Positions 28,753 through 30,860 of a DNA stretch of 64,000 nt are shown here, in pieces; the first letter of the stretch is position 1, and every line of letters begins with the position of its first letter. The position numbers and the translations under genes are program-made. The notes below the pieces were generated by a model, which ran no database searches, was not told the origin of the DNA, and saw only the letters and a list, made by a program, of their open reading frames with translations. The stretch is from a virus: positions 62,001 to 126,000 of the IMG/VR virus record IMGVR_UViG_3300031957_002603; one strand, written 5' to 3'.

Positions 28753-29688
28753 ATGAACGAAAAAATCAAAATCATCAACAACATTCTGGGCTCTGCCCGC
28801 AGAGTCAAAGACGAGCATCTTTACCACTGCCCTTTCTGTAAACACCACAAGAAGAAAATGTCGGTGAACTTCGCAAAGAATTATTTCAAATGCTGGGTAT
28901 GTGATGCGAGAGGTAAGAACATTTACCGAATCGTCCGTCGCTTTGGAACCTACGATCAACGACAAAAGTGGCTCCAACTTGACGGACGACTTGATCTCTC
29001 CGAGTTTGATAAGTTCTTCGCCGAGATCAACGAGAAAGAAATAAAGCAAACAATCTCTCTTCCCGATGAGTTTGTTTCGCTTTGTAATAAGAATCTTCCA
29101 ATGTCCTCAGCCAAAGCGCTTGAGTATCTTAGATCCCGAGGAATAACAAAAAAAGAAATCCTTGATTGGAAGATTGGCTATGCCACAGGAGGCAAGTATG
29201 GTGGCCGCATCATTATCCCAAGTTTTAATTGGGATGGTAATTCTAATTACTTTATTGCTCGCTCTTTTGTGGGTCATCAAAGACGATATCTAAATCCTCC
29301 CGTTGGAAGAGATGTTGTCTTTAATGAACTATTTATTGACTGGGATGAAGACATTAACATTGTCGAGGGTGTCTTCGATGCGATTGTCGCAGGTCCCAAC
29401 AGCATACCAATCTTGGGGTCAACTTTGCGAGAAAACTCCCGCTTATTTCAACAAATTGTAATGAATGATACTCCGGTCTATCTTGCCTTAGATAAAGATG
29501 CGGAGACCAAAAGGAACTGGATTATCAAGTCCTTTTTGAGGTACGACATTGAATTATACGTTGTTGATACATCGGGATGTGAAGACATTGGCTCAATGTC
29601 TCAAGAAGAGTTCATTCTTCGCAAATCCCAAGCAAGACCAGCAGATTTGGATGAGATTTTAATTTTCGACAAATTGAAGGCGATATGA
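28753..29688 (+). CDS. DNA primase (zinc-binding and TOPRIM domains)
   Basis: 311 residues from the ATG at 28753 (GAGG 7 bases upstream). An N-terminal zinc-binding domain has 'CPFCKHH' and 'FKCWVC' (about residues 23-58). A TOPRIM region follows, with 'INIVEGVFDAI' (Glu-Gly...Asp, about residue 205) and 'VYLALDKDAE' (Asp-x-Asp, about 249). This is the DnaG/T4 gp61 type architecture that makes RNA primers on the lagging strand. 'YLRSRGITKKEILDWKIGY' (about 117-137) is the usual linker between the two. The 3' end overlaps the next small gene by ATGA. It is isolated from any polymerase or helicase gene in this window. Confidence 0.9.
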   Translation: MNEKIKIINNILGSARRVKDEHLYHCPFCKHHKKKMSVNFAKNYFKCWVCDARGKNIYRIVRRFGTYDQRQKWLQLDGRLDLSEFDKFFAEINEKEIKQTISLPDEFVSLCNKNLPMSSAKALEYLRSRGITKKEILDWKIGYATGGKYGGRIIIPSFNWDGNSNYFIARSFVGHQRRYLNPPVGRDVVFNELFIDWDEDINIVEGVFDAIVAGPNSIPILGSTLRENSRLFQQIVMNDTPVYLALDKDAETKRNWIIKSFLRYDIELYVVDTSGCEDIGSMSQEEFILRKSQARPADLDEILIFDKLKAI

Positions 29689-29888
29689 AATTAGAACTAG
29701 GCGATTTGGTTCAACTTAATCAACAACGAGCATTAGGCAAATGGTATCTCCCAGAACTCCCCATCGAAGGAATGGGAGTTGTTGTTGACATACATGGTTT
29801 GCAGATTTGGGTTTACTGGATCAGAAAAGGTCGGATAACTCAACTACCAAGAAATTTATTAATCAAAATACTTGACAAGAATGACTAA
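29685..29888 (+). CDS. Small beta-rich protein, unknown
   Basis: 67 residues, starting in an ATGA overlap with the primase stop, so probably translationally coupled to it. The pattern 'LELGDLVQL' ... 'MGVVVDIHGLQIWVYWI' ... 'RITQLPRNLLIKIL' suggests a small SH3-like barrel. I do not know a function; such short barrels occur near phage replication genes. Its last codons (Leu-Asp-Lys-Asn-Asp-stop) contain the -35 box of the lipoprotein promoter. Confidence 0.7.
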   Translation: MKLELGDLVQLNQQRALGKWYLPELPIEGMGVVVDIHGLQIWVYWIRKGRITQLPRNLLIKILDKND

Positions 29889-29900
29889 ACAAGTTATATT
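29872..29900 (+). promoter_or_regulatory. Sigma70-type promoter (lipoprotein cassette)
   Basis: TTGACA (29872-29877), a 17-base spacer, TATATT (29895-29900). The start of transcription is expected near 29907, followed by AGGAG and the ATG at 29931. The -35 is embedded in the 3' end of the preceding gene. Confidence 0.8.
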
Positions 29901-29930: not shown

Positions 29931-30107
29931 ATGAGTATTATGTTATTTAGCATGCTTTGGGCATGTTCAGGAAAATCTGAAGAAGATTCTGCTGTTGAAG
30001 CACAGCCCGCCTCAGAGCCCGCTGAAGAACCAGCAGATTCAGGATCTGAACCAGAAGACACGGCCAGTGAGCCGGAAGATACAGCAGAAGATTCAGGAGG
30101 TGAATAA
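29931..30107 (+). CDS. Mini-lipoprotein 1 (58 aa, acidic)
   Basis: The ATG at 29931 has AGGAG about 6 bases upstream. The product starts 'MSIMLFSMLWAC', with a lipobox-like Leu-Trp-Ala-Cys at residues 9-12; only 11 residues precede the Cys and there is no Lys/Arg n-region. The mature part (about 47 residues) is almost only Glu, Asp, Ser, Ala and Pro ('AEEPADSG', 'SEPEDTASEPEDTAED') and surely disordered. It would be a lipid-anchored envelope peptide made early. It ends Gly-Gly-Glu; those codons are GGAGGTGAA and also form the SD for the next gene. Function unknown; superinfection exclusion is one possibility. Confidence 0.7.
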   Translation: MSIMLFSMLWACSGKSEEDSAVEAQPASEPAEEPADSGSEPEDTASEPEDTAEDSGGE

Positions 30108-30319
30108 TGAATATGCTACTATCATTTCTAATTGCTTGTGGTGGCGACACCGCAGAAACGACCGAGGTTGTAAATACCACGGCAACGGTAACCGAAGATG
30201 GTGTTGAGGTAGTCGAAACGACGACGACCGAAAATACCACAACGGAAGAAGTCACGACGGATAATACGACGACTACCGAGACAACTGAAAATACAGAAAC
30301 TACGAACGGAAACGAGTAG
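30107..30319 (+). CDS. Mini-lipoprotein 2 (70 aa, Thr-rich)
   Basis: It starts in the TAATG overlap with lipoprotein 1, with a perfect GGAGGTGA SD inside that gene. 'MNMLLSFLIAC' gives a lipobox Leu-Ile-Ala-Cys with only 10 residues before the Cys and no basic n-region. The mature part is dominated by Thr, Glu, Asn and Val ('VVETTTTENTTTEEVTT'), a low-complexity stalk with many potential O-glycosylation-type Thr runs. An intrinsic terminator follows. Its role is unknown; it belongs to the same cassette as its two relatives. Confidence 0.7.
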   Translation: MNMLLSFLIACGGDTAETTEVVNTTATVTEDGVEVVETTTTENTTTEEVTTDNTTTTETTENTETTNGNE

Positions 30320-30330
30320 TTCATAGGGTT

Positions 30331-30360
30331 AGCGGCTCCCTCCAAAAGCCGCTTTTCTTT
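30331..30360 (+). terminator. Intrinsic terminator after mini-lipoprotein 2
   Basis: The stem AGCGGCT (30331-30337) pairs with AGCCGCT (30347-30353) around a 9-base loop and is followed by TTTCTTTTA. It would end much of the lipoprotein transcript before lipoprotein 3 and thioredoxin. Confidence 0.7.
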
Positions 30361-30372
30361 TATGGAGGACGA

Positions 30373-30531
30373 ATGATTTTATTTTTACTTTTTGCTTGTC
30401 AGGAGCCTGATTGCGGTGAAGATGAGGCACAACCAGCAAGACAATGGAATGTCCCACAAATGCATTCCACCGGCGGTTCTTTCGAGACCGGCGAACCACT
30501 AGACACTGCTTACGATACCGGAGGTGAATAA
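30373..30531 (+). CDS. Mini-lipoprotein 3 (52 aa)
   Basis: The ATG at 30373 follows GGAGG by 5 bases. 'MILFLLFAC' has the lipobox Leu-Phe-Ala-Cys with only 8 residues before the Cys. The mature peptide has a second Cys five residues on ('CQEPDC'), then an acidic part and a 'TGEPLDTAYDTGGE' tail. It ends with the same GGAGGTGAATAATG junction as lipoprotein 1, here leading into thioredoxin. It lies just after a terminator, so its expression depends on read-through unless a promoter is hidden. Confidence 0.65.
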   Translation: MILFLLFACQEPDCGEDEAQPARQWNVPQMHSTGGSFETGEPLDTAYDTGGE

Positions 30532-30848
30532 TGGATTATATAGCAGATGGCGATTTCGCCAACAAGACGAGCCAAGGAATTGTGCTCGTTGATTTTTATG
30601 CGACATGGTGTATGCCATGCTTGAGAATGGAGAAGCAAGTTGAAGATTTTGCTTCAAGTAACTCAAACGTATCGGTTTACAAATATGATGTTGACCGAGG
30701 AGTTCAAATTTGGAATGAGGTCAAAAAGAAACACAATGTTCGATCTATTCCTTTTGTTGTAATTTACAAAGACGGAGAACCGGTAGCAGCCGAGGTTGGT
30801 TACAAATCTTCTGAAGAATTACAAAAAATACTTGACAACATTACCTAA
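30531..30848 (+). CDS. Thioredoxin-like protein
   Basis: 105 residues with a complete thioredoxin core: 'IVLVDFYATWCMPC' (active site WCMPC, residues about 28-32) and the cis-Pro segment 'VRSIPFVVIYKDGE' (about 70-83). No signal peptide, so it is cytoplasmic. It starts in the TAATG overlap with lipoprotein 3, under the full GGAGGTGA SD. It may act as disulfide reductant for ribonucleotide reductase, or as a polymerase accessory as in T7; neither is shown here. Its C-terminal codons (Leu-Asp-Asn-Ile-Thr-stop) carry the -35 box of the next promoter. Confidence 0.9.
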   Translation: MDYIADGDFANKTSQGIVLVDFYATWCMPCLRMEKQVEDFASSNSNVSVYKYDVDRGVQIWNEVKKKHNVRSIPFVVIYKDGEPVAAEVGYKSSEELQKILDNIT

Positions 30849-30860
30849 ACGTGATACAAT
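30832..30860 (+). promoter_or_regulatory. Sigma70-type promoter (Mre11-Rad50 fusion)
   Basis: TTGACA (30832-30837), a 17-base spacer, TACAAT (30855-30860). It is followed by AGGAGG (30869-30874) and the ATG at 30879. The -35 overlaps the thioredoxin 3' end. Confidence 0.8.

Follow-up and report, generated by a model that had tools for sequence, protein, structure and literature searches.

A conserved, apparently undescribed pair of acidic and Thr-rich mini-lipoprotein genes in marine T4-like phages

What could a set of very small lipoprotein genes contribute to a phage that carries them among its replication genes, and do they form a conserved set at all? The question is raised by a 64-kb stretch of DNA (here called the window; bases 62001 to 126000 of a 131,465-bp virus record), in which three consecutive short ORFs (ORF1 to ORF3) lie between a primase gene and a thioredoxin gene (Table 1). 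The phage is classified as T4-like on the basis of its T4-type portal, prohead protease, and terminase. RecA was not found in the 131,465-bp record and relatives reach 184 to 192 kb; the record is therefore probably incomplete. The next gene beyond the thioredoxin gene and the second promoter-like site encodes an SbcD/SbcC-like fusion; in one relative, an S-adenosylmethionine decarboxylase gene is inserted between the thioredoxin and SbcCD-like genes (L004:6330-6800).

Table 1. Features of the mini-lipoprotein locus, in window positions
Feature	Position	Strand	Remarks
67-aa conserved protein	29685..29888	+	Between primase gene and promoter; no match in Pfam
Sigma70-like promoter, TTGACA-17-TATATT	29872..29900	+	5' of ORF1; 11/12 consensus matches
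ORF1, acidic mini-lipoprotein, 58 aa	29931..30107	+	Cys12; mature part, 47 aa
ORF2, Thr-rich acidic mini-lipoprotein, 70 aa	30107..30319	+	Cys11; mature part, 60 aa
Terminator-like hairpin, U-rich tail	30331..30361	+	Between ORF2 and ORF3
ORF3, optional third mini-lipoprotein, 52 aa	30373..30531	+	Cys9; mature part, 44 aa
Thioredoxin gene	30531..30848	+	3' of ORF3; Pfam PF00085, E = 2.7e-17
Second promoter-like site	30832-30860		Past ORF3 and thioredoxin, ahead of SbcD/SbcC-like fusion gene

A conserved pair with an optional third gene

A sequence-only reading of the window had described the trio as mini-lipoproteins with 11, 10, and 8 residues ahead of the lipobox Cys, no basic n-region, and acidic or Thr-rich tails, and these coordinates and counts proved exact. 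The short, hydrophobic signals end in perfect lipoboxes (LWAC, LIAC, and LFAC), no Lys or Arg precedes the Cys in any of the three, and the tails of ORF1, ORF2, and ORF3 carry 17, 15, and 10 Asp/Glu residues, respectively, versus 1, 0, and 1 Lys/Arg residues. The Thr content of ORF2 is 25, ORF1 contains five D[ST][AG] tripeptides, and ORF3 has a second Cys at position 14. A strict filter (i.e., ATG, Shine-Dalgarno of at least 5, hydrophobic core, lipobox, Cys no later than residue 13, and at least 45 aa) recovered two of the three ORFs in the window, with ORF1 narrowly below the hydrophobicity cutoff, and none in 64-kb sequences simulated 60 times under a first-order Markov model; a chance origin of the trio is excluded. 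Searches of Pfam and PHROGs gave no above-chance match for the mini-lipoproteins, and annotated phages, searched at both the DNA and the protein level, yielded no relative of either the region or ORF2.

The genes are tightly interlocked. The stop codon of ORF1 and the start codon of ORF2 overlap by one base (TAATG), and the end of ORF1 (GGAGGTGAA-TAA) doubles as the Shine-Dalgarno site of ORF2, while the end of ORF3 carries GGAGGTGA, which is the Shine-Dalgarno site of the thioredoxin gene. The -GGE C termini of ORF1 and ORF3 were rejected as a protein motif, because the Shine-Dalgarno site of the next gene dictates them.

A sigma70 promoter of their own had also been attributed to the three genes. 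The promoter is real in form (only 3 matches of this quality occur in the 64-kb window, versus 0.12 expected) and is conserved upstream of ORF1 in three relatives (L004, L005, and L097), but ORF3 is cut off from the promoter-ORF1-ORF2 unit by the hairpin (AGCGGCT-N9-AGCCGCT-TTTCTTTT; z = -2.1). The hairpin stem is almost identical in the window and in the same three relatives, although the downstream gene differs; an automatic scan missed it because its loop is 9 nt. Among the close relatives compared, the Shine-Dalgarno sites, promoter, and hairpin stem are all kept.

Close relatives were found via the thioredoxin gene (two) and via the primase gene (more). ORF1 and ORF2, with their Cys residues, are present in six related contigs (L004, L005, L014, L015, L040, and L097), and their tails vary by whole-codon indels. 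ORF3 is present in one of the six (L004) and absent from L005 and L014, in which the thioredoxin gene lies immediately 3' of the hairpin. In a codon-level comparison, pN/pS was 0.27 to 0.45 for ORF1, 0.16 to 0.36 for ORF2, and 0.48 for ORF3 (one pair only), and the codon changes in all three fall chiefly at third positions. This comparison indicates that purifying selection acts on the frames and Cys residues of the mini-lipoproteins. Loss of the frames or of the Cys among relatives, which would have spoken against the original proposal, was looked for, and both are conserved in the six contigs. The syntenic triplets that it anticipated are better described as a pair plus an optional third: the ORF1/ORF2 pair is conserved, and ORF3 is an optional extra past a conserved terminator-like hairpin.

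Related mini-lipoproteins at recA

When relatives were scanned for short-signal lipoprotein ORFs, a more distant one (L033) proved to have both an acidic and a Thr-rich mini-lipoprotein ahead of recA, and another (G005) has an acidic one in that position. A recA profile search yielded 80 loci among at least 531 relatives. An acidic mini-lipoprotein lies within 250 bp of recA in 37 of the 76 loci with >400 bp upstream, and further upstream in 20 more; the distance of these 37 ORFs to the recA start codon is mostly 0 to 1 bp, and many overlap the recA/uvsX start. The best-read locus has the order gp32-like, 600-aa ORF, ClpP, Thr-rich, acidic, RecA; the order is Thr-acidic at the recA site and acidic-Thr at the window's site. 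Throughout the marine T4-like phage group, we counted 77 distinct acidic mini-lipoproteins (including two of the ORF3 type) and 19 distinct Thr-rich ones; these numbers depend on the filters that we applied, and, as closely related sequences are counted among them, they do not represent independent events. Eighteen of the 19 Thr-rich proteins adjoin an acidic one. In comparisons between the two genomic sites, the best acidic pairs reached z = 8 and the Thr-rich pairs gave z = 0.2 to 3.9. For the acidic type, homology of the tails across both sites is supported; for the Thr-rich type, it is no more than suggestive.

A DNA pattern search returned 50 stretches, mostly of the acidic family; one match (L216) is an unrelated protein that fits the pattern by chance. 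Candidate ORFs beginning MSCGVILFSCG were rejected as internal starts inside ClpP. In eight contigs (L099, L102, L110, L130, L170, L224, L234, and L239), the acidic ORFs end in a conserved F-K-T-N-D-E-L-G-V-C-Y... stretch right at the recA start. Elsewhere, the position directly 5' of recA is taken not by the mini-lipoprotein but by a lipoprotein of 263 to 266 aa (L153:3185-3976, L159:3180-3974, and L163:3174-3974). The N terminus of these larger proteins is similar to that of the mini-lipoproteins, and their position is consistent with a lipoprotein slot.

Short signals and the D-[ST]-[AG] motif

Lipoprotein signals usually, not invariably, have a basic n-region before the hydrophobic core. 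Signals free of Lys and Arg occur in 73 of the 77 acidic relatives (53 of the 57 proteins used for motif analysis) and predominate among the group's large lipoproteins; some Thr-rich relatives possess a basic n-region (MKTKLL...). Ala or Gly at -1 and Leu, Phe, or Ile at -3 were found in all 57, a set for which the search filter itself demanded a lipobox. Ultra-short signals had been regarded as the hallmark of the cassette, a claim that is not supported, as equally short ones occur in large lipoproteins from this phage group (vWA, HYDIN-Ig/vWA, and a 300-aa family). Signals of the ~300- to 500-aa lipoproteins read MLLALFLAC, MLLGFLLAC, MLLALLLSC, MWLLSFLIGC, and similar, and the window's own genome encodes a vWA lipoprotein starting MLFFILFFLSC. 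Since the large lipoproteins of the same phages share this feature, the short signals probably reflect the style of host lipoproteins. The sole match in a host search with the vWA lipoprotein was a contig that is probably of phage origin and had been binned with a Marinimicrobia genome. Marinimicrobia as the host is not supported: the primase profile matched 1 of 245 Marinimicrobia genomes, and lipoprotein-like ORFs on 20 Marinimicrobia contigs have their Cys at positions 14 to 29 and no D[ST][AG].

The vWA lipoprotein with an ultra-short signal (L006:12347-13318, i.e., G000:C1:12347-13318 of the window's own genome) is 47% identical to one in another genome (G002:16507-17427). The ~300-aa family (L026:10594-11499 and relatives), which most relatives encode between primase and SbcCD and which has no Pfam family, combines an EPSSEPS linker with a conserved C-terminal part ending GTGHIE; an AlphaFold model was of low confidence (pLDDT, 47) and unusable. 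Short-signal lipoproteins of ~500 aa occur in three genomes (G005:11267-12769, G001:71671-73257, and G004:12785-14368), the first of which matches HYDIN-type Ig and vWA domains.

The mature start of the 57 acidic proteins is mostly C-G/S-[DE]-K-[ED]..., with Gly at +2 in 53 and Ser in 4, and the core pattern is C-G-[DE]-K...D-[ST]-[AG]; D[ST][AGSV] lies within 12 residues of the Cys in 54 of the 57. The tripeptide D[ST][AG] occurs 101 times in the acidic tails versus 6.4 times in shuffled tails (16-fold), and 51 versus 2.6 expected times beyond residue +15. The corresponding z-scores, which are inflated by the shared ancestry of the sequences, are ~31 to 39 in the acidic tails and 12 in the linkers of the 300-aa lipoproteins (21 versus 2.3 expected). 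No enrichment was found for E[ST][AG] in the acidic tails, for D[ST][AG] in the Thr-rich partner, or for D[ST][AG] in other phage ORFs (at least 200 aa, two genomes of the group; 70 versus 99 expected). The repetition of the tripeptide along tails of different length and its contrast with the Glu version argue for selection on the tripeptide itself.

A possible role in the infected-cell envelope

We tentatively favor the reading that ORF1 and ORF2 are a cotranscribed, translationally coupled mini-lipoprotein pair that alters the envelope of the infected cell, most plausibly for superinfection exclusion. On the basis of general lipoprotein biology, the prolipoproteins would be exported by Sec, Lgt would lipidate the +1 Cys before LspA cleaves, and Gly or Ser at +2 would favor Lol sorting to the outer membrane. 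The mature products would be unfolded, strongly negative, lipid-anchored chains of ~17 to 75 residues. The promoter consensus and the neighboring genes (primase, thioredoxin, and SbcCD-like; elsewhere gp32, ClpP, and RecA) suggest synthesis in the DNA-replication phase, before lysis. The envelope may then be shielded and superinfecting phages excluded as by Llp and Cor, via a charged disordered tail instead of a folded plug, and a host envelope enzyme probably reads or modifies the D-[ST]-[AG] tripeptides. Coding, conservation, stop/start coupling, and the motif can be read from the sequences; the function (i.e., exclusion or envelope remodeling) is the least secure step and is suggested by the proven precedent of small superinfection-excluding phage lipoproteins such as T5 Llp. 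Against exclusion, no recognized receptor-binding protein gene adjoins the mini-lipoprotein genes, and the tails give no sign of a fold like that by which Llp binds FhuA. The annotated phage collection contains no close relative of the region through which exclusion might be linked to a receptor.

It is possible, if unlikely, that the lipopeptides are decoys that compete for Lgt, LspA, Lol, or an enzyme reading D-[ST]-[AG], so that host envelope biogenesis is stopped or rerouted. The shortest members, of 17 to 20 mature residues, consist of little more than C-G-[DE]-K..D-[ST]-[AG], larger lipoproteins start with a similar N-terminal motif, and the strong Shine-Dalgarno sites suggest high output. 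However, this analysis produced no evidence of titration, and the tail type (acidic versus Thr-rich) and the pairing are conserved, neither of which a pure decoy would need. We give somewhat less credence to D-[ST]-[AG] as an O-modification sequon, with tails forming a glycan-bearing or highly charged cell coat. The enrichment of the tripeptide in acidic tails and 300-aa linkers, and not in other phage ORFs, fits this idea, and Asp also precedes the modified Ser/Thr in Bacteroidota O-glycosylation (PMC12871550). The third residue here is Ala or Gly, whereas the Bacteroidota sequon, D-[ST]-[LIVTASM], favors L, I, V, T, A, S, and M, and Gly failed in B. fragilis (PMC12871550); D[ST][AG] is enriched in our set and D[ST][ILVMTS] is not. 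Moreover, the Thr-rich partner lacks the enrichment, and neither the Shine-Dalgarno sites nor the TTGACA/TATAAT-type promoters point to a Bacteroidota host.

An improbable alternative is a role in lysis or permeabilization comparable to that of outer-membrane spanin subunits or colicin lysis lipoproteins, which the proteins resemble in size and lipid anchor. Rz1-type outer-membrane spanin subunits are likewise tiny lipoproteins whose mature parts are of low complexity, and colicin lysis (bacteriocin release) lipoproteins carry a mature part of ~30 residues on a lipid anchor. In contrast to the former, the genes described here have no recognized i-spanin or endolysin neighbor, encode acidic or Thr-rich rather than Pro-rich tails, and sit among replication genes; the recognized neighbors, named above, do not form a two-component arrangement (o-spanin in or next to i-spanin or endolysin) with them, and synthesis is expected before lysis. 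In contrast to the latter, they are strongly acidic and paired and show no link to a bacteriocin or lysis gene. That the ORFs are nonexported small membrane peptides or chance frames, as signals of less than typical lipoprotein length and without a basic n-region might suggest, is highly improbable given the lipobox Cys in all 77 acidic and 19 Thr-rich proteins, the purifying selection, the simulated expectation of zero, and the equally short signals of large lipoproteins in the same phages.

Returning to the pair, we conclude that the original proposal of an undescribed phage lipoprotein set stands in part: the set is conserved and apparently undescribed, its signals are very short, and it has a promoter of its own. 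The acidic plus Thr-rich pair seems undescribed: the literature searched for phage lipoproteins contained nothing resembling it, which is weak evidence of novelty, since only open-license papers were covered. Genes this small are easily dropped by annotation length cutoffs, yet these are recurrent in a large group of marine phages, and overlapping codons tie them to core replication genes. Should they reshape the host envelope, they would represent a further type of phage lipoprotein, one that lacks a folded domain, and D-[ST]-[AG] as a tag would hint at a lipoprotein sorting or modification system, as yet undescribed, in the uncultured host. A more ambitious and doubtful extension is an undescribed envelope-takeover module of abundant marine T4-like phages, in which a paired acidic and Thr-rich lipopeptide coat, with a D-[ST]-[AG] tag read or modified by an enzyme of the uncultured host, would be coupled to recA or replication genes so that each infected cell is recoated during DNA copying.

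Among known systems, the Bacteroidota lipoprotein export signal (LES; C-X-K-[D/E]2-X, with Lys at +3 [PMC5080379]) is similar in that Lys and then acidic residues soon follow the +1 Cys (CGDKEE here). It differs in that the acidic proteins are mostly acidic at +3, +5, and +6 and have Lys at +4 in 46 of 57, a position without Lys in the C. canimorsus set (PMC5080379). We found nothing that relates the mini-lipoproteins to Llp/Cor, spanins, or lysis lipoproteins, and neither Pfam nor PHROGs gave a match. T5 Llp is a small phage lipoprotein with a mature part of 61 residues that excludes superinfection from the infected-cell envelope (PMC9586334). Llp and Cor resemble ORF1 and ORF2 in being small, phage-encoded lipoproteins. 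Llp is folded enough to plug FhuA, has a disulfide, as does Cor, and is encoded next to the receptor-binding protein gene; no such disulfide pair was found in the mature parts here, as the two Cys residues of ORF3 include the lipidated one. The marine genes differ in their low-complexity tails, the single Cys of ORF1 and ORF2, their pairing, and their place among replication genes.
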